Source: Pseudomonas denitrificans (nom. rej.)
Lineage (GTDB): Bacteria > Pseudomonadota > Gammaproteobacteria > Pseudomonadales > Pseudomonadaceae
Assembly (NCBI RefSeq): GCF_008807415.1
Contig: NZ_CP043626.1
Span: 248,001 to 312,000 of the forward strand
Reading direction: 5' to 3'
Length of the DNA stretch: 64,000 nucleotides
How positions within the stretch are numbered: position 1 is the stretch's first letter; each line of letters starts with the position of its first letter. The translations under genes and the position numbers were made by a program. A model generated the notes under the pieces. The model was not told the DNA's origin, searched no databases, and worked only from the letters and a program-made list of their open reading frames with translations. Below, piece after piece: positions 7,140-23,425 of the stretch.

Positions 7140-7908
7140 GGTGCGTCCGCCGGCAAGGGCTGGGTGGCGAGAAATTCGGCCAGCTCGCGGTTCAGGTCCG
7201 GGCGATGGCATTGATATCGCTGGCGTTCAGTGGAACCAGCAACACGGCACCGGGAGCCGGCGGAACCGCTTCTTCACGGTTCCACAGGGCAATGCCCAGG
7301 CGCGTCACCTGGCCGTCGGGCTGGATCAGTTAGAGGTAGTCCGGGTCTGCGTCGGCCAATGCGGGGCACTGTTGTGCGTAGCGATAGGCCTGCTGCAACG
7401 GAACGAATGGGAGTGCGCAGTCCTGCGATACCGCGCCGACGATGCGAAGGTAGTCCGGGCGGGGCGGAAAGATCAGGCGGTCGCCGCCCAGCAGTTTCGG
7501 CGAGTGTGCTGCGTTCAACTCCACGGCGAGCGGGTCAAGCGGGTAGATCTTTCGACCGGTCACCGGAAGTGCGCTTACCTGCTCGTTCAACTGCCGCGCG
7601 GCGTTCGCCAGGCTGGGGTTGTCCTGCAGTCGGGCCAGACGTTGCAACTGGATCAGATCGAACAGGATGCCGGCCTTCAGCCGCTGTTGTTCCTGCTTCA
7701 GGCTTTGCCGTTGCCAGGATGCACCGAGCCAGTAACCGAGAGGGTCCACCTGCAACTGCCCGAGCAACTGCCCCAGGCGCAGGCCTTCGGCGATCTGCTT
7801 TTCCCCGGGGGAGGGCAGGGAGCCCAGTACTTCGATACGGGAAGCGGCGAGGAGCGTGGTGCTGGCCAGGAAGCAGGCGGCCAGGCAGCAGAGTCGAGCG
7901 AACTTCAT
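7136..7908 (-). pseudogene. yjbG: YjbG/GfcC-type polysaccharide protein, interrupted by a stop and a frameshift
   Basis: Periplasmic protein of the GfcC/YjbG capsule-export family. A signal peptide (MKFARLCCLAACFLAS...) is followed by RIEVLGSLPSPGEKQI and family-like helices. The frame ends at TAA 7330-7332 after DPDYL, giving 192 residues, yet it continues in frame as LIQPDGQVTRLGIALWNREE, the expected C-terminal domain. A missing base near 7198-7199 then shifts the last 20 codons; correcting it ends the gene at TGA 7136, overlapping the yjbH start. Full length would be about 257 residues. The frameshift fits the error pattern of this sequence, but the TAA needs a substitution (for example from TAC), so real inactivation is possible. 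Confidence 0.75.
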
Positions 7909-8561
7909 GGTTGCCCCCGGAGTGGGCGCAGTTGGGTAATGGTGACGTTCAACCCCGGTGCGACCTGCTGCTGGCTCTGCAGGATGAAACCGTCCTTGGG
8001 ATCGACCCAGTAGCGATTGGTCGACGACATTCCGTCGATGGGCGCACTCAACTGCTCGTCGATGCGCAGGAGAGCCAGGTCTTGATCGAGAACACGTATG
8101 GTCTCGGTGCCGCCGTGGGAGAGATTGCCGTTGACGAGGACGCCCAGCTGATAATCAGGTCCGAGATCGACGCTGCGTTGGCTCTGCTGGCCGTCGGTGA
8201 TCTGGTGCAACCCCCGGTGGAAGGGCGAATCAGCGCTGAGCCTTGTGCTCAACAGGTCATTCGGGAAGCCCAGGGTGCGCACCACGACGCCATCCTGCAG
8301 CAGCAGAAATTGGCCTGAAGAAGTGCGCCAGTACTGCAGGTCGCCCTGGTTGCGTACCAGGGCCATCACCGCCGAGCCGTACTCGGTGGTGACCTGAATC
8401 TGGTAATAGGGCAGGGCTTCGACCTGAGCGCGGGTCAGCTCCAGCGGCGCTGGGCGGCTGAGGCTGGCGCCGAGGGTGTTCAGGGAGCCTTGCATCAGGG
8501 GATTGCAGGCGCACAGCGAGGCGGCCAGAGAGGCCAGCAGCGGCAAGCGAAGGGCGTTCAT
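7905..8561 (-). CDS. yjbF: YjbF/GfcB-type lipoprotein
   Basis: A 218-residue lipoprotein of the YjbF/GfcB polysaccharide-export family. The signal peptide ends in SLCAC with acylated Cys19. Features matching the family are LTRAQVEALPYYQI near the N-terminus, LVRNQGDLQYWRT, a FPNDLLSTRL turn and NRYWVDPKDGFILQSQQ near the C-terminus. It lies nine bases after wza and overlaps yjbG by four bases, so it is in one operon with them. No E. coli YjbE-like small gene is seen; the Wza-type exporter occupies that position. Confidence 0.85.
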   Translation of the reverse strand: MNALRLPLLASLAASLCACNPLMQGSLNTLGASLSRPAPLELTRAQVEALPYYQIQVTTEYGSAVMALVRNQGDLQYWRTSSGQFLLLQDGVVVRTLGFPNDLLSTRLSADSPFHRGLHQITDGQQSQRSVDLGPDYQLGVLVNGNLSHGGTETIRVLDQDLALLRIDEQLSAPIDGMSSTNRYWVDPKDGFILQSQQQVAPGLNVTITQLRPLRGQP

Positions 8562-8570: not shown

Positions 8571-9677
8571 TCAGTTGTTGTTGAGGTTGCGCTGCACGGT
8601 CGAACCGGTGCCCAGGATGCCGGCGGACGGCACCAACTGGCTGATCAGGCGGTTCCAGCGCGTCACGCCGGCCGGGCCAACGTAGACCACGTCCTGCGGC
8701 TGCAGCTGGAACTGCTGGGCCAGGATGAACGCGGTGGGCGAGTTGGCGTCGAGCTGGAAGACCGTGGCGCGTTCCTGTTCGAGGTTCTCGACCCCGCGGA
8801 TGACATAAACCGCCTTGCCGCTGGCCGTGGTCTGGTTCAAGCCGCCGACACTGCCCAGCGCATCGGCCAGGTTCATGTCGCGAGTCTTGAAGGTCAGAGC
8901 GCGCGGGGCGTTGACCTCGCCCATCAGGTAGACCTTCTTGCGGTCGTTGTAGGGCAGGTAAATGCGATCGCCGTCCTTCAGATAAAGGCCGTACAGGTCG
9001 GAGCCCTGCGCTGTATTCAGGGCATCCAGGTTCAAGGGGTAGACCTGGTTGTCGCGCTGTAGGGTCAGGCCGGAGAGGTCGGCATTGACGGTGTCGAGCT
9101 GGGCGGCACCGATGGCTTCCATCAGGGTCAGCGGCGTCGTGGTGATCGCTTGTGGCCCGGCCTTGATGAAGGCGCCATTGAGCAGCACGCGCTGGCTGGC
9201 GAAGCGCAGGATGGCGATATCGACCTGCGGCTCTTCCACATAGGCCGAGAGCGCCAGGCTGATGGTCTTGCGGACGTCTTCGATGGTGTGACCGGCGACC
9301 TGCAAGGTGCCAATGTAGGGGTAGAACAGCGTGCCGTCGGGCCGGACCAGTCGCCCGTTGGCGTCGGTCTGTTGTTGCTGGCCAGCCGGAGAGGTGAGCT
9401 CGGGGTGGTCCCACACGGTGATGTAAAGCAGGTCACCGGCGCCGATCTGATAGCTCTCGGGGTGGAAGCTGGTCAGCTCCGTCGGGATCGACTCCGTTCT
9501 TTGCGTCGCGGCTTCGACCGTGAGCAGTTTGGGAGTGATCTGCACCAGTTGGACGCGGCTGGATTCAGCCGAATCTTCCTGCGTCAGTCGCCCGGTATCC
9601 AGGTACTGGCCGGGGGAGAACATGCAGCCTTGCAAGGCGAGGGCGGTAAGGATAGCGACGGACAATGGACGAATCAT
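8571..9677 (-). CDS. wza: Wza-type outer-membrane polysaccharide export lipoprotein
   Basis: A 368-residue OPX-family lipoprotein that forms the outer-membrane channel for capsule or exopolysaccharide. Lipobox ALQGC, Cys18. The polysaccharide export domain (YQIGAGDLLYITVWDHPELT, with DGTLFYPYIGTLQVAG) is at about residues 76-165. Two SLBB-type domains follow (VLLNGAFIKAGPQ and VYLMGEVNAPRALTF), then a C-terminal region with LQPQDVVYVGP. The length matches E. coli Wza (379). It works with the Wzc kinase at 18751-20994. About 166 bases separate it from the upstream glycosyl-phosphate transferase gene, enough for an extra promoter, but I see no clear one. Confidence 0.9.
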   Translation of the reverse strand: MIRPLSVAILTALALQGCMFSPGQYLDTGRLTQEDSAESSRVQLVQITPKLLTVEAATQRTESIPTELTSFHPESYQIGAGDLLYITVWDHPELTSPAGQQQQTDANGRLVRPDGTLFYPYIGTLQVAGHTIEDVRKTISLALSAYVEEPQVDIAILRFASQRVLLNGAFIKAGPQAITTTPLTLMEAIGAAQLDTVNADLSGLTLQRDNQVYPLNLDALNTAQGSDLYGLYLKDGDRIYLPYNDRKKVYLMGEVNAPRALTFKTRDMNLADALGSVGGLNQTTASGKAVYVIRGVENLEQERATVFQLDANSPTAFILAQQFQLQPQDVVYVGPAGVTRWNRLISQLVPSAGILGTGSTVQRNLNNN

Positions 9678-9843: not shown

Positions 9844-11259
9844 TCAGTAGGCGTTCTGGTGAACGAAGCCCTTGAACAGGGTCAGGAAGACGATCTTCAG
9901 GTCCCACCAGAGTGACCAGTTATTGATGTAGGCGAGGTCGAACTCCACCCGCTTTTGCATCTTCTCCAAGGTGTCGGTCTCCCCGCGCCAGCCATTCACC
10001 TGCGCCCACCCGGTGATGCCCGGCTTGACCTTGTGACGCAGCATGTAACTGCTGATCTGCCCGCGGTATTCCTCGTTGTGGGCGATTGCATGGGGGCGTG
10101 GACCAACGATGGACATGTCGCCGAGCAGCACGTTGATGAACTGCGGCAACTCATCCAGCGACGTGCGGCGCAGGAAGGCGCCGACCGGGGTGATGCGGCT
10201 GTCGTTACGGGTGGCCTGGGTTACTTTCGCGCCGTTCTCCATCACCCGCATGCTGCGGAACTTCCAGACTTCAATGGAGCGGCCGTCGATGCCGTAGCGC
10301 TTCTGCTTGAAGAACACCGAGCCCGGCGAGGTGAACTTCACCGCCGCAGAGATCAGCAGCATTGGCACTGCAATCAGGCAGAGGATCAGTGTGGACAGCA
10401 CGATATCTTCCAGGCGCTTCACCAGCGCGCCAGCGCCAACCATGGGGCTGTCGAAGATGCTGATGGTGGGGATGCCGTCGATGTTCTGCGCGCGGGCGTG
10501 GAGCAGGTCGAAGACGAAAACATCGGGCACGATGTGCACGGATACGGTGGTATCGCTCAATTGCCCGACCAGCCACTTGATGCGCTCTTCGCTGCGCATA
10601 GGCAGGGTGATGTAGACGCGATCCAGCTTGCCGGCGCGCGCTTGCTCGACCAGCTTCTCCAGATCACCGGAAATGGGGAGCTGGACCTTTCCCTTGCCCA
10701 GGCTGACTGGCTCACGGCGAACATCGTCGTAGAAGCCGGCGAGCTCCAAGCCCATCCACGGAGCGCTGGCAATGTTGCTGGCCAGGCGCTGCCCCAGCGA
10801 GCCGGCTCCGGCAATGGCGATCGAGCGGGTATTGAAACCGCGACGTCGCAGCGCATGCAGGCCGGAGCGCAGCAGCATGCGATAGCCACCGAGGCTGATC
10901 AGTACCAGAGAAAACCATTGAACCTGACCTTTTGCATCGAGCAGGGTGATTTCAGGAATCAGATAGTCAGCGACAGCCACTCCCGCGAAGCTGACTGCCC
11001 AGATGCCGGCTACCTTGCGTAGTTCTTCGCGCGTTCGCTCACCTCGCCAGGAGGTGTACAGCTGACCGAAGTCGCTGAGCAGATAGAAGATAACCAGGGC
11101 AAACAGCGTTGCGATGACCGCTGAATAGTCCCAGTGGTCTTTGTTGGCAATGAGCACCAGTTCCATACTGAAGCAGATGACACAAAGATCGAGCAGCTTT
11201 TGCAGGACGGAGATAGTGGCTTGATGGGGGCGGAGAATTCCGCGGTCCAAGGTGTTCAT
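9844..11259 (-). CDS. wcaJ: Undecaprenyl-phosphate sugar-1-phosphate transferase (WcaJ-type)
   Basis: Initiating enzyme: transfers a sugar phosphate, probably glucose-1-phosphate, from UDP-sugar to undecaprenyl phosphate on the cytoplasmic face. 471 residues. Four or five N-terminal membrane segments, a CoA-binding-like middle domain (IAIAGAGSLGQRLA), a further membrane hairpin (about 280-310), then the catalytic bacterial sugar transferase domain with KQKRYGIDG, EVWKFRSMRV, SLDELPQFINVLLGDMSIVG and KPGITGWAQVNGWRGET. ATG 11259 is chosen because it begins the usual short N-terminus; an upstream in-frame start at 11367 would run into the preceding glycosyltransferase gene. The exact sugar cannot be read from sequence. 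Confidence 0.9.
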   Translation of the reverse strand: MNTLDRGILRPHQATISVLQKLLDLCVICFSMELVLIANKDHWDYSAVIATLFALVIFYLLSDFGQLYTSWRGERTREELRKVAGIWAVSFAGVAVADYLIPEITLLDAKGQVQWFSLVLISLGGYRMLLRSGLHALRRRGFNTRSIAIAGAGSLGQRLASNIASAPWMGLELAGFYDDVRREPVSLGKGKVQLPISGDLEKLVEQARAGKLDRVYITLPMRSEERIKWLVGQLSDTTVSVHIVPDVFVFDLLHARAQNIDGIPTISIFDSPMVGAGALVKRLEDIVLSTLILCLIAVPMLLISAAVKFTSPGSVFFKQKRYGIDGRSIEVWKFRSMRVMENGAKVTQATRNDSRITPVGAFLRRTSLDELPQFINVLLGDMSIVGPRPHAIAHNEEYRGQISSYMLRHKVKPGITGWAQVNGWRGETDTLEKMQKRVEFDLAYINNWSLWWDLKIVFLTLFKGFVHQNAY

Positions 11260-11284
11260 CGAGTGAGTCTCTAGGACAATTGGT

Positions 11285-12373
11285 TCAGACAGTGAGGCGC
11301 AGGGTGCGTGCGTAGAACGCCGAGAGCTCACGGGCGAATCTGTCGGGTGCGAAGCGCTGGCGAACAAAGTCGTGTAGTTCCTCAGGTGATCGAGCCGTCT
11401 CCGTTGAGAGGGCGCTCTTAATATGTCTTATCAAGGTTTCTTCGCTGGAAAGGTCCGCTACCAGTCCCACGGGGGCGACGATTTCCGGTAACGAGCCCGT
11501 CTGATTGACCAGCACTGGAGTGCCTTTGGCGAGGGACTCGATGGCGACCAGTCCGAAGCCTTCCCAGCGAGAGGGCATGATCGTCAGTGCCGCTTGCTCA
11601 TAGAGTTCGGACAGGGAATTCTTATCCTGCCATCCGAGGAACTGAATATTGTCGGTGGCCACGTATTCACAGCCTTCCAGTACGGCAGAGCCGGCGACCA
11701 GAAGCCGGAAGTCCTTGAGCAACGGGCTGGTGAACGCTCGGTAGAGAAGGTCGAACCCCTTCTGATGGTCTAGCCGGCCAACGAAAAGAACCGTATTGCT
11801 CGACTTGTTGCCGTGCCTTGGGAATCCGGAAAGGTAATGCGGGTCGACTGGGTTGTAGATGATCGCCTGATTGGCATTGGGAATGAATGCCGCCCGCTGC
11901 TGCTCTGTCCTGGAAATATGAATGATGCCGTCGGAGAGCATCCCGGTGAGGAGGTCCAGAGATTTGCTTGCCAGGTTCTCCAGGAGCGAGGTTTGGCGTA
12001 GGAACGACCAGCCATGGGCGCAATAGATCGCAGGCGGATTCCTCAGCAGCATCAGCCGGCGCAAGACGAAGAGGTAGCCGGCTAGCGAACTGTGCAGGTG
12101 AATCAGATCATAGCGATCCTGCTTTAGTGCCTTGTGCAGTACCCGGAACAGATGAGTTGCACGGCTGATACGTCCATCGCCCTTGAACAGCAGGAGCTTC
12201 GAACCATCGATGGCGAGACAGTCGCGCTGGTTGCCCGGGATCAGATAGTGATTATCGTGGGGCGATGTCTTGTCCAGAGTCTCCAGATAGGTGGCGACAC
12301 CGCCCTGGATGGTCTCCGCAGCATGCAATATTTTATATGGATATTCCAGGGTAGGCTGAGCATTCATGATCAT
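11285..12373 (-). CDS. GT4 family glycosyltransferase
   Basis: A 362-residue GT-B glycosyltransferase, retaining type, acting on the lipid-linked repeat unit at the inner membrane. N-terminal domain: YKILHAAETIQGGVATYLETL and LIHLHSSLAGYL. C-terminal domain: VLFVGRLDHQKGFDLL and the EX7E-type nucleotide-sugar motif in EGFGLVAIE. The donor and acceptor are unknown. It is moderately AT-rich compared with the genes on either side of the cluster and marks the edge of the low-GC block. It ends 25 bases before the wcaJ-like start. Confidence 0.85.
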   Translation of the reverse strand: MIMNAQPTLEYPYKILHAAETIQGGVATYLETLDKTSPHDNHYLIPGNQRDCLAIDGSKLLLFKGDGRISRATHLFRVLHKALKQDRYDLIHLHSSLAGYLFVLRRLMLLRNPPAIYCAHGWSFLRQTSLLENLASKSLDLLTGMLSDGIIHISRTEQQRAAFIPNANQAIIYNPVDPHYLSGFPRHGNKSSNTVLFVGRLDHQKGFDLLYRAFTSPLLKDFRLLVAGSAVLEGCEYVATDNIQFLGWQDKNSLSELYEQAALTIMPSRWEGFGLVAIESLAKGTPVLVNQTGSLPEIVAPVGLVADLSSEETLIRHIKSALSTETARSPEELHDFVRQRFAPDRFARELSAFYARTLRLTV

Positions 12374-12459: not shown

Positions 12460-13497
12460 CTATTTTTGGTTGTAGGTGAACATTAGGATGGTTAGAAGAG
12501 GTGTCAGGTGTTTTATGTAGGATCCGTAGTCTGGTTCAAATATCGCCTGAACAGACAGTGCGGAAAATAAAAGTGAATATCCAGATCGTAGTTTTGGTGA
12601 ATTTCTTAGCGCGCCGCTCTTGTGTTGTTGTTTAAGTTTTATTAGTGCTATGCAGGAAATCAAGCTGAGCGCTATAAATGATGTAAGATGCAGGATGTTT
12701 CCTGTAAAAGCTAGCGGGACAGGGAATAGAAGCAAGAGTAGTTGCAGAAAAGTGTTTATGGTGTCGAGTAGCCACCCGGAGCCGGGGATTGTTGGCGTAA
12801 TCAGGGTCAGGGCATCAATTGATCCTATACGGTCCCCGTTAGAGTTTATCCGATGCTGGCCTAACTCTTGTCCGTAAATGATTGGGAGTAATAGGGCGAG
12901 CAGCAGGTATAATAGGAATGCTGTTGCTAGAAATAGAGTTGGTTTGTTATATTTTTTTAATATTAATAGATTTACTATGAATAAAGATAATGTAATTAAC
13001 CAGTAGGCTCTAAAATAAATCGCGTAGACTGCTGCGGCGGCTACCCATATTGTAAGCAGGCGCAGTGAATGGCAGGATGCGAGGAATCCAAGGCAAAGCA
13101 ATAGAACTATTGATTCCTTGCTATATTGCGATAAATATATCGCGGCCGTAATACATGCGTAGAAGCATATTGCTGTTGTTCCGAGGAGGTTTTTTGTTTC
13201 CAGTCGGCGCAAGATGTAAAATATTGCTGTAATGAATATTGCAGGAAATAGAAGGCTGTTCAGTGCTGAGTTTTCATTAATGCCAAGTAGTTGGTAGAAG
13301 AGTGCTGTGTTATTGTAGGAGTTCCCAATTTCCAGTACTTCGGCAGAGCGTTTCAGGCTATCTATAGATGCGCTATCGTAAAAATATTTCTCTGGTACAA
13401 TGTCTCGGGAATTTACAGCTATTAAGACTGATAGAAGGGCGATCCCAATTAGGCTAATAAATGCAGTTGCTTTTCTGAGACTGATGGGGATGTTCAT
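12460..13497 (-). CDS. Multi-pass membrane protein, candidate Wzy polymerase
   Basis: A 345-residue, very hydrophobic protein with about nine or ten membrane segments and a longer periplasmic loop near residues 205-240 (GQELGQHRINSNGDRIGS). An arginine/tyrosine-rich segment, FRAYW, lies mid-chain and FEPDYGSYIKHLTP near the C-terminus; similar end segments occur in poorly conserved polymerase-like proteins of polysaccharide clusters. No enzyme motif is readable. Position between the glycerophosphotransferase (four-base overlap, ATGA) and a glycosyltransferase, and lack of any other polymerase gene, make Wzy the best guess. AT-rich. Confidence 0.6.
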   Translation of the reverse strand: MNIPISLRKATAFISLIGIALLSVLIAVNSRDIVPEKYFYDSASIDSLKRSAEVLEIGNSYNNTALFYQLLGINENSALNSLLFPAIFITAIFYILRRLETKNLLGTTAICFYACITAAIYLSQYSKESIVLLLCLGFLASCHSLRLLTIWVAAAAVYAIYFRAYWLITLSLFIVNLLILKKYNKPTLFLATAFLLYLLLALLLPIIYGQELGQHRINSNGDRIGSIDALTLITPTIPGSGWLLDTINTFLQLLLLLFPVPLAFTGNILHLTSFIALSLISCIALIKLKQQHKSGALRNSPKLRSGYSLLFSALSVQAIFEPDYGSYIKHLTPLLTILMFTYNQK

Positions 13498-14930
13498 TTG
13501 TTAGACAGTTTCTTGCAGAGTTCATAGGTTCGAAGCGCAGATTGTCCGTCTTGGAACTCGTGGTAACGCTTGAGTAGTTTTTTGGAGCAATTGTTCTGCG
13601 TAACACCATTGCTCCAGTTTTTTTCAATGCTTTGTATCAGTCCGTGCCAGTCTTTGTGCCATGATGAGTCTGTAAATACATCGTATGACTCGTAGAGGCC
13701 TTGAGTTTCATGGTATGAGTCTATGTCTGGGGCAAAAAAATATATAGACCTGCTTCGTAAGCTGAAGTCAATTGCGATGGATGAATAGTCTGTAATCAAT
13801 GCACCGAAAAGCCAAAGATAGTCATTTACGTCTTGATATGTATTTTGAGGGAAGAGCAGCACGCGTCTATGATTGAATTTCAGGATCGGATTATTTCCGT
13901 CCAGAGGATGTGCGCGGAATGCTACGTATTTGTCGTGTTTTTCCAGAAGGCTAACTAGGTCGTGGAAGCCCTGCATGTCAGATTGTATGGAACCCGCACG
14001 CCAGGTCGGGGCATAGAGTAGAACTCGATCAGGACCAAGTTTAAGGAGTTCATTGATCAATAAATCTTCTGTGTGGTTTGCGTTGGCTTTCAGTAAAACT
14101 TTGTCTGTTCGAGGTTCGCCGACTACTACGGCAACCTTTGGTTTAAGTCTGAATGCTGACTCTATACGAGTGCGAGATATCTCAGATGATACGGGGAATA
14201 TATATATGCGTCGTGTGAAACATGACTGGAGGTGGCGTTTTACACGTTTCCGAATCGACGAGCCTAGCAGTTGCGGTGAGTCGAAGTATATTTTCTTGAG
14301 GGGAGTTCCGTGCCAGACGTTAATTATCTTTGCCCCATGTATGGCTGTGCCATTTAGATCGTTGAATCCATACGCTATGAAGGCCAGATTTGCCCGTAGA
14401 CAATACCAATACCCTCTTAATGAATGAAGTGGATAGTGGGACATCCCCCTTTGCTGTAGGGCCACACGCTCACTTTCCGACCTATAAAGCCAGACGTTCC
14501 GATGCGTCCCGTCCTTATGCGCGATCTCGATGATAGCAGCGCACCCCTCGGAGTAGCCTCTAAGACATCCATAAACCCATAGGCTTTTATCTTTAGGGAT
14601 TATGTTTGCCAGCAATAGAAGGGCAAATTGACTTCCTGCTACTGTAGTACTGTGGGTTAGCTTCTTAATTAAAGAGAGCATTTTGTTTCGCTTTGAATAG
14701 GTAGAAGATACGAAGTGACTGTACGCAGAGATCTGTTGCAGGTATTGATACTGCAGTTGTAAACCACTCACCATGTCGGTTAGGTAAAGGAATCGAAGAA
14801 TTGCCAAGCTTATTATGGATGCGAGGGGCGCACTGATATTTGCTTTTTTAAGTGCGTTCACTGCGCAGAACGCTGAATATCCAAACGTAATCGCAAAGTA
14901 GCCCAGCACCGTGGCGGAAATAAATACCAT
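13494..14930 (-). CDS. CDP-glycerol glycerophosphotransferase (TagB/TagF-like)
   Basis: Transfers glycerol phosphate from CDP-glycerol to a sugar or growing chain. Family signatures: VWHGTPLKKI (about residues 205-215), GEPRTDKVL, LLYAPTWR (near 308), FRAHP, and TDYSSIAIDF (near 381) followed by PDIDSYHETQGLY. These match the Glyphos_transf family of teichoic-acid and capsule enzymes. 478 residues from ATG 14930; the first about 83 include two hydrophobic stretches not usual in the family, and ATG 14681 (MLSLIKK) would give a more typical start, although it has no clear ribosome-binding site. The TagD-like enzyme at 17596-18057 can supply CDP-glycerol. AT-rich, unlike the host genes. Confidence 0.85.
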   Translation of the reverse strand: MVFISATVLGYFAITFGYSAFCAVNALKKANISAPLASIISLAILRFLYLTDMVSGLQLQYQYLQQISAYSHFVSSTYSKRNKMLSLIKKLTHSTTVAGSQFALLLLANIIPKDKSLWVYGCLRGYSEGCAAIIEIAHKDGTHRNVWLYRSESERVALQQRGMSHYPLHSLRGYWYCLRANLAFIAYGFNDLNGTAIHGAKIINVWHGTPLKKIYFDSPQLLGSSIRKRVKRHLQSCFTRRIYIFPVSSEISRTRIESAFRLKPKVAVVVGEPRTDKVLLKANANHTEDLLINELLKLGPDRVLLYAPTWRAGSIQSDMQGFHDLVSLLEKHDKYVAFRAHPLDGNNPILKFNHRRVLLFPQNTYQDVNDYLWLFGALITDYSSIAIDFSLRSRSIYFFAPDIDSYHETQGLYESYDVFTDSSWHKDWHGLIQSIEKNWSNGVTQNNCSKKLLKRYHEFQDGQSALRTYELCKKLSNK

Positions 14931-15126: not shown

Positions 15127-16112
15127 TTATCGTAGCATTTGAATTAATTTAAGTAATTTACTGAGAGTTTCTGAGGCAAGAGGAGATAGTTTTTCTAAGT
15201 TAACTATAAGTCGCTGATGAACAGGGATGTTTTTTCTGTATTTTTTTGGGCAAGATTGATATAGTTCACTATATAGCTTAGTTACTAACTGACGAGAGTA
15301 TTGGTTCTTGCCGCGATATCTGAAGGCGGCAGCAAGTTTATCTACTGAATGTACGAGGAAGCTGTTTTTTATTTTATTACTATTAAGCAGGCCGAGGCTT
15401 TCTAAATACTCTTTTATCCATAGTTGAGCATCGAGGGAGTTTTTAGTGCTGATATATGAGTGGTTTCGAGATATGCTTAATTTGTTTTCTCTGTAGTGAT
15501 ATATTGGCTCATTTAAAGTTGCTATTATTTTGATTTTATCGCTAGTTAATAGCTGTATATTGAATATAAGGTCTTCCCCGTGGAAGATATTTTCAGGAAT
15601 AGAGATGTTCTGAATGTGTTCTTTTTTATATAGTTTTGCCCATTGATATCGGAATGGGAATTTAAAGAAAAATTCAATCCAATTGTCCGCGTCGTTGAAT
15701 ATGTTTTTGGGGGCGTTCTATACTGGCTGCCTCTATTTGAAACGATTTCATACCCTCCGATTACAATATCAGCATTGGTCTTTATTGCCTCATTAACTAA
15801 CAGTTCGACAGCGTTAGACGCGAGCGAGTCATCCGAATCTAAGAAAGTAATCAGTTCCCCGCGTGCTAAAGATACCCCCTTTGGACGTGCAAGTTGTGGA
15901 CCCTCATTTTTTAAATTATGGATGACTCTGATGTTTGTATTAATTAAGGCAAATTGGTCGCAAATAAAACCTGTGGAGTCGGGGCTGCAATCATTTATAA
16001 CTATTACCTCTATGTGGGGGTAAGACTGCTCAATGCAACTGTTTAAACAACGTGTTATGAAATGCTCTGCCTTATACGCGGGAATTATAATTGAAACCAA
16101 TGGTGATGACAT
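15127..16112 (-). CDS. GT2 family glycosyltransferase (one frameshift)
   Basis: Inverting GT-A glycosyltransferase. N-terminal GT2 domain: PLVSIIIPAYKAEHFI, VIVINDCSPDST and the metal-binding LDSDDS. The frame as written runs off at the G run 15709-15713 and stops after 188 residues. Restoring one base continues it as NWIEFFFKFPFRYQWAKLYKK, then IPENIFHGEDLIFNIQLL, the typical C-terminal region of EpsJ-like transferases, ending at TAA 15127-15129. That gives about 328 residues. The donor sugar is unknown. The gene is AT-rich and lies 155 bases after the flippase gene. Confidence 0.8.
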
Positions 16113-16267: not shown

Positions 16268-17599
16268 TTATTTAAAGAAAAAAGGAATAAATGCTTTGCA
16301 TTGCATTATAAATGTTATTCTGGTTTTTGAATTTAGCGCATTCGCCAGTACACTAGCTACAGCTTGCGATATTAATGTTGCCCATGCCGATCCAATAATT
16401 CCATAGTTTGGAATTAATATGCTATTTAATATGATGTTGGTTATGGCTCCCAGCGTGGTTCGGGATAAGGTAAATTTTTGTAAGTTCTCAATTATGAACC
16501 ATTTGCTGCTCGCGATTCCGGAAAATACAAATACTCCAGCCCATATATGAATGCTGAGAACCTTGCCAGCTTCAGCATATTCTTTTCCGTAAATTTTGGT
16601 GATGATTAGTTCGGAGGAAAATGAAACTATTATAGCTAGGGCTATTGATATGGATGTTAAGTAGTTATATAAGGCTTGGAGTTTTTTCAGGTATTCTGAT
16701 TCGCTGCGTTTTTTTGATTTTAATATGGATGGGAAGATAGATGTTACTACTGCTGTTGGAATGAAATACCAAACCTCGCTAATTCGAACCGCAGCAGTGA
16801 ACATGCCAACAGCATCATCACTAATCAGTTGTCCAATCATGATTTGATCAATTCTCATATAGATCATGATCGTTACGCTTGATAAAACAAGTGGCCAACT
16901 ATTACGGATTAACCATTGGGCAGTTTTTAAGTTTGCTCTCCAGTTTAGTACGTTCCCGCCAACTCTTTTGTAGATAAATAGAAGGCCGAATGAAACTAAT
17001 CCAGCTTCTGCTAGGGTTAGATATATGAAGGCTATAAAGCTGCTGTTGTTGTATATTGCTAATACTTTGCACGCGGAAATTATAAGGAAGGCGCCATTTT
17101 CTACTGCTACAAAGTATTTTGCTTGGAGATTCGCTTCAAACCAGAATTTTATGGTTTCAGTGCTTTTTAGTAAAAGTATAGAGCCAAGAAGAGCAGAAAT
17201 TAAAAGGGGATCTTTAGCCTCTGGCCTTAATAGCATTATCACGAATGCCATTGCGATAAGTGCCATTACACCTGTTGCTAGCTGCAATAATAAGCTTGTT
17301 CCTAATATTAATTCCTGCTTTTCCCGATGCTCTAGGATTTCTCGAACAACTATCCCGTTTAGTCCAAGTGACGATATGGTTCCGAATAAAGCAAGAAATG
17401 CAAGTAAGTAGCTGAACCATCCATACTGGTCTGGACCTAAATATCGCGCTACCCAGACACTGACAATAACGCCAACGCCCATTCGCAATATTTTATCCAA
17501 GAAAAGCCAGATCGCATTTTTTATTATTCTTTTCTTTTCTACGTGCCCGAGCTTAACTTCTTGGGGAGAATCTGGAGGGGGATGCTTCAGAGTGGTCAT
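16268..17599 (-). CDS. wzx: Wzx-type polysaccharide flippase
   Basis: A 443-residue MOP-superfamily flippase moving undecaprenyl-linked repeat units across the inner membrane. About 12-14 membrane segments. It starts with KKRIIKNAIWLFLDKILRMG and VARYLGPDQYGWFSYLLAF, the usual N-terminal signature of this family, and has IYMRIDQIMIGQL mid-chain. The start overlaps the upstream cytidylyltransferase stop by four bases (ATGA), so the two are translated from one message. AT-rich. Confidence 0.9.
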   Translation of the reverse strand: MTTLKHPPPDSPQEVKLGHVEKKRIIKNAIWLFLDKILRMGVGVIVSVWVARYLGPDQYGWFSYLLAFLALFGTISSLGLNGIVVREILEHREKQELILGTSLLLQLATGVMALIAMAFVIMLLRPEAKDPLLISALLGSILLLKSTETIKFWFEANLQAKYFVAVENGAFLIISACKVLAIYNNSSFIAFIYLTLAEAGLVSFGLLFIYKRVGGNVLNWRANLKTAQWLIRNSWPLVLSSVTIMIYMRIDQIMIGQLISDDAVGMFTAAVRISEVWYFIPTAVVTSIFPSILKSKKRSESEYLKKLQALYNYLTSISIALAIIVSFSSELIITKIYGKEYAEAGKVLSIHIWAGVFVFSGIASSKWFIIENLQKFTLSRTTLGAITNIILNSILIPNYGIIGSAWATLISQAVASVLANALNSKTRITFIMQCKAFIPFFFK

Positions 17600-18057
17600 T
17601 TAAAATTGACAACAATTGAAGAGAGAAGTTTAAACGCTTGATTTAGGCTTTCTATGTGCTCGGCATCTAATGTTTTGATAGCGTTCTTTAATTTAGTGCT
17701 GGAAATTCCATCTGTCCGGGGTAAGTAAACAACATCACAGTATTGATTTAGATGGTCAAATCTTCCTTTCCAATCGTCGCCTATTCCAAATGTCGATACG
17801 TTGTAATTGCGAATGTCACTTATTTTTTGCTCCCAGTTGTCCTCGCTTATTGCCATGTCTACATATTTTATACTTTGTACTATTTTGAGCCTGTCCTCAA
17901 ATTTTATTATTGTTTTTTTTCCCTTTGATTCGTTAAAAGCATCACTTGAGACGCCTACTATTAAGCAGTCACCCAATGCCTTCAGTCTTTGTAGGAGGTT
18001 TAAATGGCCTACGTGAAATAGGTCAAAGGTTCCATAGGTTAATATCACTTTTTTCAT
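17596..18057 (-). CDS. tagD: Glycerol-3-phosphate cytidylyltransferase (TagD-like)
   Basis: Makes CDP-glycerol from CTP and glycerol-3-phosphate in the cytoplasm. 153 residues. Nucleotidyltransferase motifs: YGTFDLFHVGHLNLL, with HVGH at residues 15-18, VGVSSDAFN, and near residue 114 RTDGISSTKL, matching the RTxGISTT signature of the family. TagD itself is about 130 residues; this one carries about 20 extra C-terminal residues. First gene after the JUMPStart/ops element and overlapping the flippase. Its product is the natural donor for the glycerophosphotransferase at 13494-14930. A different cytidylyltransferase substrate cannot be excluded. Confidence 0.85.
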   Translation of the reverse strand: MKKVILTYGTFDLFHVGHLNLLQRLKALGDCLIVGVSSDAFNESKGKKTIIKFEDRLKIVQSIKYVDMAISEDNWEQKISDIRNYNVSTFGIGDDWKGRFDHLNQYCDVVYLPRTDGISSTKLKNAIKTLDAEHIESLNQAFKLLSSIVVNFK

Positions 18058-18096
18058 GGGGCTATTCTGGTTTTGAATTGATTTCTGTGGGGGTAG

Positions 18097-18133
18097 GCAC
18101 GCTACCGCCCCAGGATTTTTCGTTTAGCTCCTG
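18097..18133 (-). promoter_or_regulatory. JUMPStart/ops element for RfaH recruitment
   Basis: On the minus strand, bases 18109-18097 read GGCGGTAGCGTGC, a full match to the ops consensus GGCGGTAGCNTGC. It is preceded by a CAGGA/TCCTG stem (18133-18129 / 18115-18111), in the place of the stem in the E. coli JUMPStart element. The ops core itself can fold as GGTAG/CTACC. It lies 40 bases before the tagD-like start and about 107 bases after the rfaH stop. RfaH binds a polymerase paused at ops and prevents early termination across long polysaccharide operons. Confidence 0.85.
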
Positions 18134-18215
18134 AGACGTAGCGGAATTACTTGTTAAGACTGTCAGCGTGGTGCAGATCAGGCTGGGTTTTTGATCGAAC
18201 GACAAAATATATGAG

Positions 18216-18713
18216 CTAACTGGCTCTTATCAGACCCTGAACCGGAGAGCTCACTTGCACTTCGCGCTGAAGGAGCTTTAGCAAAAGTATTACCCGTTGC
18301 GCTCCGTCCTTGGCGAGGTAAATGGCTTCGATACCACTGGTCCCTGCCCAGTTGATAATTACCTTGTCTCCTGGCTCAAGCTCATGCTCCAGGGGAGCAT
18401 TTCTCTGCCGCAAGTAATCGATGATGTTGTTTGAAACCGGCAATGGATTTTCGCCAAATCGCACGATTTGGCTGACTCCTCTTGTCGAGCGGACTGGCAT
18501 CCAGTTGTCCTGCTGTGTGTCCAGTTCGATGAAGAGGTAACCGGGGAATAATGCTTCCTCCTGACGCCGCCACTGGCCATTGCGCAAGCGCTCGACTTGA
18601 TGTGTCGGTAACAGACACTCGAACCCCTGATTCTCCAGATTCTCGAGTGCACGAAAATCCTGCCTGGGCTTGCACTGGAGCAGATACCAGCGCTTATCCG
18701 TTGTTGCTTGCAT
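18216..18713 (-). CDS. rfaH: RfaH-type transcription antiterminator
   Basis: NusG paralogue of 165 residues. The NGN domain has WYLLQCKPRQDFRALENLENQGF, EALFPGYLFIELD and STRGVSQIVRFGENP, all close to E. coli RfaH. The C-terminal KOW/helical-hairpin region has PGDKVIINWAGTSGIEAIY and VILLLKLLQRE, again RfaH-like. ATG 18713 is preceded by GGAGGAC, a near-ideal ribosome-binding site; a longer start at 18788 would overlap wzc. It is encoded inside the cluster it likely controls, with an ops site directly after it, so it can act on the AT-rich biosynthetic genes downstream. Confidence 0.9.
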   Translation of the reverse strand: MQATTDKRWYLLQCKPRQDFRALENLENQGFECLLPTHQVERLRNGQWRRQEEALFPGYLFIELDTQQDNWMPVRSTRGVSQIVRFGENPLPVSNNIIDYLRQRNAPLEHELEPGDKVIINWAGTSGIEAIYLAKDGAQRVILLLKLLQREVQVSSPVQGLIRAS

Positions 18714-18750
18714 ATGTCCTCCATGCGGGGTGCCCCGCAGGAAAGCGTGT

Positions 18751-20994
18751 TCAGCTCTTGTCCGAGACGTATTCGTACTGGTAGGCATAGGCCCCGGCGC
18801 CGTAGTAATCCGCTGCGCGTCGCTCGACGCCGTTGAAGATGGCGCCCTTCAGTTCGATGCCGTTCTGTTCGAAGCGGCGGATGGTCAGTTCGATTTCTCG
18901 CTGGGCGTTCTTGGCGAAGCGGGTGACGATCAGGCTGGTGCCTGCCTGCCGGCCAACGATGGCGGCATCGGTCACGGCCAGCAGAGGGGGAGTGTCGAGG
19001 ATGACCAGGTCGAATTCGGCGCTGGCCCTTTCCAGCATGTCGGTGAAGTTGGGGTGCATCAGCAGTTCCGACGGGTTGGGCGGAATCTGCCCACGGGAGA
19101 TGAAGCTGAGGTTCTGCACGCTTGTGGCTTGAATGGCGCTGTCGAATCCACAGCGGCGGATCAGCAGGTCGGAAAGGCCGCTTTGCTCACGTGCGTTGAG
19201 GATCTTGTGCAGGTAGCCCTTGCGCATATCGACATCGACCAGCAAAACGCGTTGGCCGGTTTGTGCGATCACGGCCGCCAGGTTGGCGCTGACGAAGGAT
19301 TTACCCACTGAGGGGCTTGGCCCGGAGATCATCAGGCGGTTGTCGCCGGATTCCAGCATGGCGAAGTGCAGGCTGGTGCGCAGGCTGCGCAGGGACTCGA
19401 CAGCAAGGTCTGTGGGGTGGCTGGTGGCCAGCAGCGGGGCGGGCTGGAACGAGCCCTTGTTGCACTTGTTGCGCCGGTCTTCTTCGGCCTTCTGCAATGC
19501 GCTGTAAGGAATCGAGGCATACACTGGCAGGCCGAGTTGCTCGATGGCTTCAGGGGTTTCGATGCCACGGTTCATGGCCTTGCGCAACAGCACCAGGGCA
19601 ATGGCGAAGAACAGGCCCAGCAGCGTCGCAATGGCAACGATCAAGGGTTTCTTGGGTTTCACCGGTTTGGTGGTGTCGACATCGGCCGGGTCGATGATGC
19701 GCACGTTGCCGACGGCGCCGGCGCGCATGACGTCCAGTTCCTGGGCCTTGTTCAGCATTTGCGTATAGATAGCGGTGCTGACCTGTACGTCGCGGGTCAG
19801 GCGCAGCAGGTCCTGCTGGGTTTCCGGCAGGGCTTCGACGCGTTTGGAGAGGCCGGCCTGTTTGCTGGTCAGTTCGCCGATCTGCCGCATCAGGGCCTGG
19901 TAGGCCGGGTGCTGGTGGGTGAACTTGTGGTCCATCTCGGCCTGCTGCAGCTTCAGCTGGGAGATGCTGGTGTCCAGCGCGACGATCTGGTCCAGCAGGG
20001 CCTTGGTTTCCAGGCTGATGTCCGCCGACTTGGCGCGGGACTGGTAGCCGCTCAGGGCGTTTTCCGACTGCTCCAGGTCCTTGCGGACTTCCGGCAGTTG
20101 GCCGCGCAGGAACTCCAGGCTGGAGGCGGCTTCGGCAGAGGCTCGTTCGACGTTCTGCAGTACATACTGCTGGCTGATGGCATCGAGTACGGCGAGGGCC
20201 TGTTCGGGTTGCTCGTCGTCCAGGGCCAGGGTGAGGATGCCGGACTCCTTGCCGGTTTCGCTGACGTTGAGGTTCTGCTGGTAGTCGAGAATCGCGCTCA
20301 GCCGCCGTTCGCGGGTGACCTTGAAGCGGGTGCCGGGATTGGCGGCCAGGGTCTCTACCTGCACCTTCACGCCGTTCTGCTCGGCGGGCTGGCCAACAGT
20401 GCCTTTCACCAGCAGGTTGTTGTCGTCGTCAAACAGGCTGTAGCGCCCGTTCTCACCGGCGATGAGCGTCAATTGCTTTTCCAGCAGTACGTCGGGTACA
20501 TCGAGCTGGAAGATCTTCAGGCTTTCGCCGCCCCAGGCGAAACGGCTCATCCCCAGCAGCGCGGGCGCGATATCGCCAGGGTGCTCCGGGCTGTAGTGGC
20601 GATGAAGGAAGTTGCCGAACACCGGGAACAGCGAGGGCTGGACATCGATATCCAGTTTGAGGCTGTCCACGGCTTTGCCGATCACGCTGCGCGAGGTCAG
20701 CAGCTGGATCTCGGTGACCGCTTGCGATTGCGCACCCAGCAGGTCGCTCATGTCCGACAGGCCCGGGATGCCGGGCTTCTTCTGTTCCACCTGGAGGGTG
20801 GCGCTGGCGCGGTACACCGGTGGTGCGAGCAGGGCATAGGCTACGCCCATCACCATGAAGCCGGCGGTGATGCTGGCAATCATCCATTTGCGGTCCAGCA
20901 GGGTGCCGAAGAGGGCGAGCAGGTCGATCTCGTCATCGTCCTGCGAGGCTTGCAGCACGGGAGCTTGGGGCTTGGGCGTGTGTGGGTGTTGCAT
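18751..20994 (-). CDS. wzc: Wzc-type tyrosine autokinase / chain-length regulator
   Basis: Inner-membrane polysaccharide co-polymerase with a cytoplasmic BY-kinase domain; controls chain length and export with Wza. 747 residues. Membrane segments near 37-57 and 445-465 flank a periplasmic Wzz domain with coiled-coil stretches (about 290-420). The kinase has Walker A GPSPSVGKS (about 556-564), LLVDVDMRKG (A' motif) and VILDTPPLLAVTDA (Walker B). The C-terminus carries a cluster of six tyrosines (YYGAGAYAYQYEY), the autophosphorylation tail. Family members often have N or G where the Walker A has its second S. A Wzb phosphatase gene ends 22 bases upstream. GC-rich, unlike the central biosynthetic genes. 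Confidence 0.92.
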   Translation of the reverse strand: MQHPHTPKPQAPVLQASQDDDEIDLLALFGTLLDRKWMIASITAGFMVMGVAYALLAPPVYRASATLQVEQKKPGIPGLSDMSDLLGAQSQAVTEIQLLTSRSVIGKAVDSLKLDIDVQPSLFPVFGNFLHRHYSPEHPGDIAPALLGMSRFAWGGESLKIFQLDVPDVLLEKQLTLIAGENGRYSLFDDDNNLLVKGTVGQPAEQNGVKVQVETLAANPGTRFKVTRERRLSAILDYQQNLNVSETGKESGILTLALDDEQPEQALAVLDAISQQYVLQNVERASAEAASSLEFLRGQLPEVRKDLEQSENALSGYQSRAKSADISLETKALLDQIVALDTSISQLKLQQAEMDHKFTHQHPAYQALMRQIGELTSKQAGLSKRVEALPETQQDLLRLTRDVQVSTAIYTQMLNKAQELDVMRAGAVGNVRIIDPADVDTTKPVKPKKPLIVAIATLLGLFFAIALVLLRKAMNRGIETPEAIEQLGLPVYASIPYSALQKAEEDRRNKCNKGSFQPAPLLATSHPTDLAVESLRSLRTSLHFAMLESGDNRLMISGPSPSVGKSFVSANLAAVIAQTGQRVLLVDVDMRKGYLHKILNAREQSGLSDLLIRRCGFDSAIQATSVQNLSFISRGQIPPNPSELLMHPNFTDMLERASAEFDLVILDTPPLLAVTDAAIVGRQAGTSLIVTRFAKNAQREIELTIRRFEQNGIELKGAIFNGVERRAADYYGAGAYAYQYEYVSDKS

Positions 20995-21016: not shown

Positions 21017-21463
21017 TTAGCGGGCAGGGCGAATGCGTTTCGCCCAGGCAGCGGCGTCTTGGGCGATCAGCGCGTAGGCGTGCTCGAAGGCGGCGTCACT
21101 CTGTCGGTAGGGGTCTGGAATTTCGCGGTCGTGCTGCCACTTTCCGAGCAGGAAGGTCTTGCCGCGGGATTCGGGAAACTGGCGGAAGATGTCTTGCAGG
21201 TGGCGCTGCTCCATGGCCAGCACCAGATCGGCGGCCTGCAGCAGTTCGGCTGTCAGTTGCCGGGCGTGGTGCTCCTGGGGCTGCTGGCCATGGCGCTGGA
21301 GCGTGGCAAGGGCGCGCGCCTCGAGCGGGCGGCCGACCAGAGCCGTCAGCCCGGCGGAGGAGACATGAACGCCGGAGTCTGTCAGTTCATACCGAAGGAG
21401 ATGTTCTGCTGTAGGACTGCGGCAGATGTTGCCAGCACAGACCATCAGTACCCTGTTGAACAC
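21017..21463 (-). CDS. wzb: Low-molecular-weight protein-tyrosine phosphatase (Wzb-type), copy 2
   Basis: Dephosphorylates the Wzc tyrosine tail. 148 residues from GTG 21463. Catalytic loop CAGNICRSP (Cys9, Arg15) and general-acid DPY in EIPDPYR near residue 115. GTG is preferred over the in-frame ATG at 21526 because the paralogue at 22889-23335 begins at exactly this point with MFNRILIVC. It lies 22 bases before wzc. The two phosphatases share RGKTFLLGKWQ and IPDPYR and are recent or conserved duplicates. Confidence 0.88.
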   Translation of the reverse strand: MFNRVLMVCAGNICRSPTAEHLLRYELTDSGVHVSSAGLTALVGRPLEARALATLQRHGQQPQEHHARQLTAELLQAADLVLAMEQRHLQDIFRQFPESRGKTFLLGKWQHDREIPDPYRQSDAAFEHAYALIAQDAAAWAKRIRPAR

Positions 21464-21686
21464 GGTTGTCACCGCTGCATGAATCAATGAGGCCGCGAAA
21501 TTAAGCCTCGCAGCCGGTCGATTCAATGCACTCCTCCCCCGGTTTCAGGGGTTTAAGAATTCTCTGAGGAGGGTTAAAGGGAATACTGTCAAAACAATGA
21601 AAGTGCCGGACAATTCTGGTCGTTTTCTGAGCGCCTCGAACGACTGGGCAGCGCTGTCGAAAAGGGCATTTTCGAGGAGGGAGGGG
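21464..21686. other. Spacer between GT4 gene and wzb copy 2
   Basis: 223 bases without a supported gene. On the minus strand a TTGACA is present near 21594, but no convincing -10 box follows at the right distance, so a promoter is possible but unproven. Confidence 0.4.
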
Positions 21687-22739
21687 TCAGCCCCGGGCGA
21701 GTTCGTTTTGGGCCGTTTCTGAGGGGAAGCGAGAGTAAAGCGCGCTCAGTGAACTGCGTAAGTGTTCACCGCAGTGCAGTTGCCGAATGCTGTGAGTATT
21801 GTGACGCAGGCGGGAAAGCGTTCCGGGGTCGCCCTTGATGAAAGCGTGAATTTCCTGGCGCGCGTGGCCGAGGTCCTGCAGGGTGGAAAGCCCCTCCGCG
21901 CTGAAAGGACCGATGCGCCGCAGTGCGATGGGAAGATCGAGCTTCGCTGCCTCCAGCACCGAGATGGGGAAGCCGTCCCACGCTGCCGTGTGGAAGTAGA
22001 GGTCGAGCCCCTTCATGTGGGCGATGACCTCGCCGCGCGGGCGCCAACCGGTCACTTCGATGCCGGCCTGGATCATCTCGGCCGTGACCTGGGCGTCCCC
22101 GCCACCGATCCACTTGAAGTGCGCAACGTCCGCGCAGCCCTCTGCCAGCGCGCGGAAATACTCGTGGCCCTTCTGCCGACTGATGCGCCCGACCATGCCG
22201 ATCACCGGCTTGCTGGTAAGGCTGTGGATCGCCGGCACTTCCGGGAGGTCGTCGCAGATGTTCACCAGGCCCAGGGTATGCCCCGGCTCGATCAGTTCCC
22301 CGGCGATGCGCTGTTCGTCCAGGCCGCAGCCGGCAATCACCGCCGTGCGCTTCGCCAGCAGCGATTCGATGGCCCGGTAGGCCTTGAGCATCATGGGGTG
22401 GTCGCCGCGCAGGAAGGCGAAGCCGTGGGGGGTGTAGACGATCTTCTTTGCGGGAATGAAGGGCAGGGCGCGGATCAGGGCGCCGGCATAGGTGCTGTGC
22501 AGATGGATGACATCCGGCTGCACACGATCGATGTACGGCTTCACCCGGGCGAGGCTGGAAAGACGGCGGGGCACCAGTTCCATGTGCTTGAACAGGCCCT
22601 GGCTTTCCTCTCCCGTGGTGTCGCCCTTGCGCACTGAGGCCAGCAGGTAGTGCTCATGCTGCTGGGAGTTGAGGATGTAGGAGTTGATGGCCGAGGTGAC
22701 GCCGCCGCCAAAGGACTCGGTGATGTGCAGGATCTTCAT
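21687..22739 (-). CDS. GT4 family glycosyltransferase
   Basis: A 350-residue GT-B enzyme for exopolysaccharide repeat-unit assembly. N-terminal domain: MKILHITESFGGGVTSAINSY and DVIHLHSTYAGALIRAL. C-terminal domain: PVIGMVGRISRQKGHEYF and DGFPISVLEAAKLDLP, where D replaces the first glutamate of the common EX7E motif. Similar enzymes are found in amylovoran-type clusters. GC-rich, so it belongs with the host-like flank and not the AT-rich core. It sits between two phosphatase genes. Donor unknown. Confidence 0.82.
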   Translation of the reverse strand: MKILHITESFGGGVTSAINSYILNSQQHEHYLLASVRKGDTTGEESQGLFKHMELVPRRLSSLARVKPYIDRVQPDVIHLHSTYAGALIRALPFIPAKKIVYTPHGFAFLRGDHPMMLKAYRAIESLLAKRTAVIAGCGLDEQRIAGELIEPGHTLGLVNICDDLPEVPAIHSLTSKPVIGMVGRISRQKGHEYFRALAEGCADVAHFKWIGGGDAQVTAEMIQAGIEVTGWRPRGEVIAHMKGLDLYFHTAAWDGFPISVLEAAKLDLPIALRRIGPFSAEGLSTLQDLGHARQEIHAFIKGDPGTLSRLRHNTHSIRQLHCGEHLRSSLSALYSRFPSETAQNELARG

Positions 22740-22888: not shown

Positions 22889-23335
22889 TTACCGGCGAAT
22901 CCGCAGTCGATCGCCCCAGGGAGCTACCGCGGATTCGATCAGCGCATACGCGCGCTCGAAGGCATCCGGGCCTTTGCGATAAGGGTCCGGAATCTCCTGG
23001 TCGGTCTGCCACTTGCCCAGCAGGAAGGTCTTGCCGCGAGCCTCGGGGGCCAGGCGGATAACGCTCAGGATCTGCGATTGCTCCATCACCAGGACGAGAT
23101 TGGCCTCGTGGACCAGTTCGGCGGTGAGCTGGCGGGCGCGGTGCGGTTGCGGGTGGTGGCCGTGACGGCGAAGGGTGGCGAGGGCGGTGTTGTCGATGGA
23201 GTGGCCGACCAGCGCGCTGAGCCCGGCGGAGGCCACGGCGATGTCGCTGCCCTGCAGGGACTCGCGCAGCAGGTGTTCGGCGATGGGGCTGCGGCAGATG
23301 TTGCCGACGCAGACGATCAGAATCCTGTTGAACAC
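22889..23335 (-). CDS. wzb: Low-molecular-weight protein-tyrosine phosphatase (Wzb-type), copy 1
   Basis: A 148-residue phosphatase with catalytic loop CVGNICRSP (Cys9, Arg15) and EIPDPYRKG near residue 115. Predicted partner of Wzc. First gene of the polysaccharide cluster in transcription order, directly after the plsB terminator, so its promoter must lie in the short 23336-23349 stretch, in the terminator region, or in plsB. Its paralogue at 21017-21463 lies next to wzc, with a glycosyltransferase gene between them. Confidence 0.88.
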   Translation of the reverse strand: MFNRILIVCVGNICRSPIAEHLLRESLQGSDIAVASAGLSALVGHSIDNTALATLRRHGHHPQPHRARQLTAELVHEANLVLVMEQSQILSVIRLAPEARGKTFLLGKWQTDQEIPDPYRKGPDAFERAYALIESAVAPWGDRLRIRR

Positions 23336-23349: not shown

Positions 23350-23392
23350 ACCGCGACCGAGGGTAGATCGTCAGAAATCTATCGGTCGCGGT
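23350..23392 (-). terminator. Terminator-like hairpin after plsB
   Basis: Perfect 11-base arms ACCGCGACCGA / TCGGTCGCGGT, with a second inner stem TAGAT/ATCTA. It lies between the plsB stop and the first gene of the polysaccharide cluster and probably insulates the two. Confidence 0.7.
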
Positions 23393-23425
23393 GCGGGGGC
23401 GTCAAGCTGCCGGCAGGAGGGCGGA

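Follow-up and report, generated by a model that had tools for sequence, protein, structure and literature searches.

Can a polysaccharide gene cluster carry, in its own middle, both the factor that permits its transcription and the site at which that factor is loaded? This question is raised by a 64,000-nt stretch of the Pseudomonas denitrificans (nom. rej.) genome (contig NZ_CP043626.1, positions 248,001–312,000; this whole stretch is called the window), in which a gene for the antitermination factor RfaH lies within a cluster and is followed by an ops (operon polarity suppressor) core behind a short stem. An earlier inspection of the sequence, the original prediction, had proposed that gene and site form a self-contained switch. 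Our analysis makes it likely that they constitute a cis-encoded, ops-gated RfaH antitermination switch, which would let transcription continue through the biosynthesis and export genes behind it (the cargo, about 13 kb). We have high confidence in the element as a genuine loading site for RfaH and in its pairing with the cluster rfaH, and good confidence that it gates the cargo by read-through.

The cluster rfaH and the element behind it

The features at the centre of the argument are these:

18216..18713, minus strand: rfaH, 165 aa (TIGR01955 score above cut-off)
18097..18109, minus strand: ops core GGCGGTAGCGTGC, exact (single exact copy in the genome)
18098..18141, minus strand: JUMPStart-like element, 44 nt, stem adjoining ops (46-row alignment, covariance model)

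The gene that the original prediction had named as rfaH in mid-cluster was confirmed as such: its product scored 172.3 bits against TIGR01955 (curated cut-off, 144.5 bits) and fell under the curated cut-offs of UpxY (59 of 100 bits) and LoaP (41.1 of 125 bits). Alignment to E. coli RfaH revealed that K10, R16, T72 and R73, the ops-contact cluster implicated in E. coli ops binding (PMC2871177), were all identical. The autoinhibition residues E48, I93 and R138 were identical as well, and F130, which is named together with E48 and I93 for RfaH autoinhibition (PMC7593976), was Y. Among 35 aligned RfaHs with an ops in cis, E48 was kept in 33 and R138 in all 35. The RfaH tree placed E. coli RfaH within the clade of the window protein, at the end of a very long branch (4.55), and required six changes of the label 'ops'; no descent was drawn from this tree.

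A full ops core had been expected about 107 bases after the rfaH stop codon; the exact GGCGGTAGCGTGC lies 106 nt past it, with a 5-bp stem, CAGGA (18129–18133) and TCCTG (18111–18115), immediately before the core. The exact 13-mer has one copy in the whole 6.88 Mb genome. Loose matching was dropped as evidence, since sites with one mismatch occurred in the genome at the control rate (34, and 33 for the reversed motif) and those with up to two mismatches in the window numbered 4 where 4.32 were expected; exact 12-mers were likewise dropped, since genus genomes that lack this RfaH type contain them about as often as the control. Because loose matches are at the control rate they carry no weight, and it is the exact site in its place that counts. 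A covariance model for the whole element (44 nt), trained on 46 elements including that of the window and all 13 from the genus, scored the window site at 56.3 bits and the next site in the genome at 15.8 bits (150 first-look candidates were scored per genome; here, 150 of 3074). No other clear JUMPStart-like element was found in the genome.

The alignment of these 46 elements, from which one locus with a different stem (L137) and four Nitrincola variants were left out, gave the consensus CACGTTCTCAGGAAAnnGACGAAAAATCCTGGGGCGGTAGCGTG. GGCGGTAGCGT was identical in 46 of 46, partly by construction, as the elements were collected via that core. Standard pairs occupied 96.7% of the 182 stem cells (37 distinct rows), compared with 93.9% in shuffles and at most 58.8% when the partner was slid by 1–3 columns, and changes on both sides were found in three of the five stem pairs (shuffled mean, 0.6). 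These substitution patterns indicate compensatory changes in the stem. Two results speak against covariation: further pair types numbered 5, compared with 4.6 in shuffles (251 of 500 shuffles), and the outermost pair was open in 6 of 37 rows.

Conservation of the rfaH–ops arrangement

A search of 25 genomes of the genus with the RfaH protein revealed 13 with the window type, 10 with only a second type, and two (G012 and G017) with neither. All 13 genomes of the window type have the ops core in sense orientation 63–575 nt behind the rfaH stop, bearing out the rfaH–ops order that the original prediction had proposed looking for in other genomes. In G014 the core ends in GCGTA and a second element follows 663 nt further on; in G009 only 31 nt separate the rfaH stop and the element. 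In the 12 genomes without the window type, the covariance model (E 0.01) gave no match in 11 and a weak one (25.4 bits) in G018; the 13 matches in first-type genomes are by construction, as their elements trained the model. Element presence and RfaH type were associated (Fisher p 1.9e-7, the weak G018 match counted as absent). Compared in six genome pairs, the 44-nt element was 80–100% identical and the stretch separating it from rfaH 29–70%.

Comparison of the genus loci, up to about 11–14 kb after ops, showed that the genes before the element are largely constant and the genes behind it vary. A wzc homologue precedes rfaH in 13 of 13 loci, wzb2 was called in 12 (exception, G013), and plsB lies further upstream in 11 (the G002 contig starts later, and the G003 frame is without a match). 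The first gene after the element, as mechanically called, encodes a cytidylyltransferase in 6 of 13 loci; elsewhere it encodes UDP-GlcNAc 2-epimerase, UDP-glucose dehydrogenase, nucleotidyltransferase/HAD, HMGL-like or Wzx-like proteins, and in two of the 13 it has no family match. Nine of the other 12 loci also have, behind the element, a homologue of the window's sugar-phosphate transferase.

The wider set comprised the best 80 of 459 confirmed RfaH loci, from species genomes with record titles. GGCGGTAGNNT[GA] was found within 700 nt behind rfaH in 29 of the 80, with none on the opposite strand there and none in the 700 nt before rfaH; one more locus (L086), with a core ending in CGTT, brings those with GGCGGTAGCGT behind rfaH to 30. 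The set takes in Moraxellaceae, Marinobacterium and one Stutzerimonas (L137, with the different stem). In four Nitrincola loci (L089, L103, L107 and L111) rfaH is followed after about 100 nt by a variant ops, CCCTGCGGTAGCCTGCC, and all four of their RfaH proteins have E at Q13; variant site and protein are possibly a co-evolved pair. Two further Nitrincola loci (L115 and L135) yielded no element. A search of 298 Pseudomonadaceae genomes for the 16-mer CCTGGGGCGGTAGCGT gave 76 sites, spread over 66 genomes, and none for the reversed control; at least 39 of the sites lie 0–1200 nt behind a same-strand rfaH. The parts, their order and co-conservation, the stem, and the retained ops-contact and autoinhibition residues are observed features.

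Proposed read-through into the cargo and its alternatives

Upstream and downstream of rfaH and the element, the minus strand carries, in order, wzb1, GT4, wzb2 and wzc, then a tagD-like gene and genes for a Wzx-like flippase, GT2, a CDP-glycerol glycerophosphotransferase family protein, a hydrophobic protein, GT4, a sugar-phosphate transferase, Wza, YjbF and YjbH:

23376..23405, minus strand: P1, promoter-like TTGACG-N18-TAGATT before wzb1 (hexamers common to 6 subclade genomes)
22889..23335, minus strand: wzb1, tyrosine phosphatase
21687..22739, minus strand: GT4 glycosyltransferase (front part)
21498..21526, minus strand: P2, promoter-like TTGAAT-N17-TAATTT before wzb2 (hexamers common to 6 subclade genomes)
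21017..21463, minus strand: wzb2, tyrosine phosphatase (start set at GTG 21463)
18751..20994, minus strand: wzc, tyrosine autokinase (homologue before rfaH in all 13 genus loci)
17596..18057, minus strand: tagD-like cytidylyltransferase, first gene past ops (TIGR01518 154.3 bits, under the cut-off of 165.4)
16268..17599, minus strand: Wzx-like flippase
15546..16112, minus strand: GT2 glycosyltransferase, apparently frame-broken in this assembly
13494..14930, minus strand: CDP-glycerol glycerophosphotransferase family protein
12460..13497, minus strand: hydrophobic protein, no family match (Wzy polymerase is a guess)
11285..12373, minus strand: GT4 glycosyltransferase (cargo)
9844..11367, minus strand: sugar-phosphate transferase (Bac_transf), with the homologues noted above
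8571..9677, minus strand: Wza-type export protein
7905..8561, minus strand: YjbF/GfcB-type lipoprotein
5054..7211, minus strand: YjbH-type protein, three frame pieces

The genes wzc and rfaH are 37 nt apart, ops follows the rfaH stop after 106 nt, and the tagD start follows ops after 39 nt. GC content falls from 0.625 in the 3 kb before rfaH, by way of 0.528 in rfaH itself, to 0.38 over the 3 kb next to ops on its downstream side, in agreement with the predicted AT-rich biosynthesis genes behind the site; further downstream it is 0.442 at 3–6 kb and again 0.597 at 6–9 kb.

The P1 hexamers recurred in six genomes of the window's subclade and were not found in the other seven genus genomes with this RfaH type. 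Those of P2 were the same in the six subclade genomes, and a related TTGAC[TC] form was present in four of the other seven. A consensus promoter scan, which did not flag P2, did not rise above chance level: 6.1 kb yielded 2 promoter-like sites, with 1.8 expected. The rfaH–ops gap held no conserved promoter-like site. Conserved upstream sites in a subset of genomes, together with the poorly conserved gap between rfaH and the element, favour read-through from upstream.

By this reading, transcription would start at P1, at P2 or at both and yield wzb–wzc–rfaH. RNA polymerase would then meet the JUMPStart-like/ops element 106 nt past rfaH and pause there, exposing a nontemplate ops hairpin, at which RfaH freshly made from the same transcript would bind and open out of its autoinhibited form. 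Bound RfaH would exclude NusG and Rho and probably recruit ribosomes, and the cargo from the tagD-like gene to yjbH (about 13 kb, the first 6 kb of low GC) would be read and translated. The transcription path, the dependence on RfaH, fold switching and ribosome recruitment are here modelled on E. coli RfaH, and the proposed sequence of events, in which assembly genes are made first and read-through is then permitted, is one that we infer.

Ribosome recruitment has been reported for E. coli RfaH (PMC7593976). In the five genomes whose first cargo gene lies 52–56 nt from the first base of ops, that gene had a weak Shine-Dalgarno sequence (−0.3 to −3.3 kcal/mol in all five); random cargo stretches averaged −3.6 kcal/mol, and rfaH had −5.2 or stronger in 12 of 13 (G003 was left out of the list). 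The window's tagD-like gene has a weak Shine-Dalgarno sequence. The contrast would fit recruitment of ribosomes by RfaH, in a small sample and not as a general rule.

Several observations weigh against the switch as proposed. First genes in seven other genomes had Shine-Dalgarno energies from −1.2 to −7.7, and that of the window's wzc is also weak (−3.0). H20 is N in the cluster RfaH, and a change at H20 of E. coli RfaH caused a strong ops-pausing defect (PMC2871177); H65-T66-T67 is N-W-M. Among the 35 RfaHs with an ops in cis, the H20 position is N in 25 and H in 10, and H20 was not treated as defining for RfaH because of this variability. The Rfam JUMPstart model RF01707 gave 18.7 bits (E 0.11 over 301 nt; gathering score, 35), in an alignment that covers model positions 6–38 of 38 and places the stem directly before GGGCGGTAGCGTG. 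The original comparison of the stem with that of E. coli JUMPStart holds for its position and not for its sequence, and because of the score the element is termed JUMPStart-like rather than an Rfam member.

The arrangement is also not universal. Thirty-four of the 80 wider loci had no element, although two of these (L127 and L131) have too little flank to tell. In 12 of the 80, all titled Pseudomonas, rfaH is turned round, and the element lies on the strand opposite rfaH, 3.5–5.4 kb before the rfaH stop. In the two of these that were annotated (L095 and L102), the element stands directly behind a wzb–wzc pair running opposite to rfaH, so that in these loci ops has kept its place behind wzc and it is rfaH that has moved. 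Among the RfaH matches listed, the other 16-mer sites comprised 4 near rfaH and opposite to it, 2 near it on the same strand but otherwise placed, 12 far away on the same contig and 11 on another contig, so that 25 of the 76 are far, on another contig or otherwise arranged; for 8 of the 76 no RfaH match was listed. Tandem placement is therefore not essential. Three genomes (G040, G032 and G094) have one listed RfaH with its own adjacent ops plus one or two further sites; four such further sites outside the training set (L139, L140, L143 and L144) scored 37.4–62.2 bits by the covariance model.

Finally, the genome encodes a second RfaH paralog (C1:4963133-4963588, minus strand; L012 9098-9625), adjoining WbqC, Wzc and glycosyltransferase genes, that keeps K10, R16 and R73. 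It is unlikely, on balance, that this paralog also acts at the cluster ops, which would leave the switch not self-contained. The retained residues would permit it, but ops stands behind the first-type rfaH in all 13 genomes that have one, nine of the ten genomes with only the second type lack an element by the model (G018 being the weak match), and the E48 position is Q in all 15 genus copies of the paralog that were retrieved. In the wider second clade this position is E in 30 of 34 rows and Q in four, so that Q looks like a feature of the genus and not a rule for RfaHs without ops. No ops motif was found within about 1.5 kb on either side in 15 genus loci of the second type (the G009 copy not included), no canonical ops up to 6 kb on either side in related named loci, and no element by the covariance model in the own-genome stretches L012, L145 and L146. 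As a side observation, three relatives (L056–L058) have an exact ops-like 12-mer without a stem about 24 kb upstream of the second rfaH; at the same place in the own genome (L145 18956–18975, minus strand) the 12-mer has two mismatches.

A separate transcript, led by the JUMPStart-like region from its own promoter near the rfaH end or in the rfaH–tagD gap, with RfaH acting in trans, is improbable. JUMPstart is described in 5' untranslated regions (PMC2864571), and the window element stands before the first cargo gene yet behind wzb–wzc–rfaH; relatives have remote elements, and a weak promoter-like site (9 of 12) covers the rfaH stop (18233–18206), but the scan gave such sites at about the chance level noted above. 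A loose TTGANN-N15-19-TANNNT pattern lies across the element in 5 of 13 genus genomes, but the window is not among them, and in G019 one lies behind ops. The window's rfaH–tagD gap, where by the original prediction a strong promoter would make read-through unnecessary, contains no match to this loose pattern. The 31-nt distance in G009 and the poor conservation of the gap argue against a promoter there. That the element acts without RfaH, as an RNA hairpin or pause coupling transcription to translation and linked to rfaH for other reasons, is very improbable, since for all its conserved stem with apparently compensatory changes, its presence within the genus tracks RfaH type and GGCGGTAGCGT is identical in every aligned element, partly by construction.

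Gating of the cargo by the cluster's own RfaH is hence the reading retained. Of the self-contained switch as first proposed, the rfaH–ops unit before variable genes (all 13 genus loci with this RfaH type; a single clear site genome-wide) and the upstream promoter-like sites, conserved in a subset with none conserved in the gap, are in its favour; its self-containment is qualified by the second paralog and by relatives with far-off further elements.

Some features of the cluster stand apart from this argument. P1 overlaps a 10-bp inverted repeat (CCGCGACCGA ... TCGGTCGCGG) at 23352–23405 (minus strand), which has one copy in the genome and is kept in the six subclade genomes (one base different in G006); it is a possible operator for a regulator. 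The TTG called mechanically as the wzb2 start (21526) belongs to the conserved promoter-like site as its −35-like hexamer, and wzb2 probably starts at GTG 21463. The yjbH gene (5054–7211, minus strand) is in three pieces and the GT2 region (14931–16112, minus strand) seemingly changes frame; these breaks are either assembly errors or decay. In two relatives a frame of 695 aa lies near the corresponding position. Elsewhere in the window, Rfam matched a C4 antisense RNA (2984–3074, plus strand; 73.1 bits) and a t44 RNA (44677–44774, plus strand; 72.3 bits). Positions 15000–24000 had no megablast match in a plasmid collection.

Comparison with known systems

RfaH, ops and cis-encoded NusG paralogs are already known. 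Also published are RfaH-like genes from exopolysaccharide operons of Shewanella and, in an exopolysaccharide locus of a Pseudomonas, a gene with an RfaH domain (PMC5532660). An rfaH–ops tandem with the autoinhibition residues kept looks like a new form of these; such a tandem in Pseudomonas was not found in the openly licensed PubMed Central literature.

The window shares with E. coli the RfaH family, an identical ops core, a stem directly before it and polysaccharide cargo; in contrast to E. coli, rfaH lies inside the cluster just before its ops, the stem and loop sequences differ, and H20 and the HTT motif are changed. Shewanella CL7 has an RfaH-like gene within a putative exopolysaccharide operon (PMC7593976, PMC7819879), but no ops is described for such genes in the parts consulted, whereas the window's genus has a fixed rfaH–ops tandem at 13 of 13 loci. 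Bacteroides UpxY, LoaP, TaA and ActX are NusG paralogs encoded with or next to the operon served (PMC7593976, PMC7819879); unlike UpxY and LoaP, the window protein falls on the RfaH side of the curated cut-offs, and its predicted recruitment is by an RfaH-type ops. A 2026 preprint (PMC13015549) describes putative monomorphic cis-acting RfaH homologs, whose genes likewise lie in or beside a long surface-polysaccharide operon; they differ from the window RfaH, which keeps K10, R16, T72, R73 and the E48–R138 pair and has an ops. In the EPS273 locus of Pseudomonas stutzeri 273, an RfaH-domain protein, EPS273-M, lies in an exopolysaccharide locus as a proposed activator; it is termed a direct transcriptional activator, and the consulted parts of that paper mention neither ops nor JUMPStart (PMC5532660).

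Current models hold that RfaH was first cis-acting without DNA specificity and that ops recognition and autoinhibition were gained for work in trans (PMC7593976, PMC7819879, PMC13015549). A widespread cis-encoded RfaH with its own ops and the autoinhibition pair breaks the simple cis/trans split of these models, and the tandem, divergent and tandem-plus-remote arrangements are natural intermediates; with divergent and remote ops sites in related RfaHs, the supposed steps from cis to trans would stand side by side in one family. As the second paralog has Q at the E48 position and no such element was found for it, one cell may have both recruitment modes. The order wzc–rfaH–ops suggests a portable expression module ahead of exchangeable biosynthesis genes.

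There is about an even chance that the window RfaH represents a third kind of NusG paralog, cis-encoded like UpxY, ops-gated, probably autoinhibited like E. coli RfaH, and acting as a feed-forward permit. If so, the polymerase would transcribe the gene of the antiterminator first and then pause at its loading site, the permit would travel with the constant front of a swappable polysaccharide locus, and ops specificity would already have been there at the cis stage.
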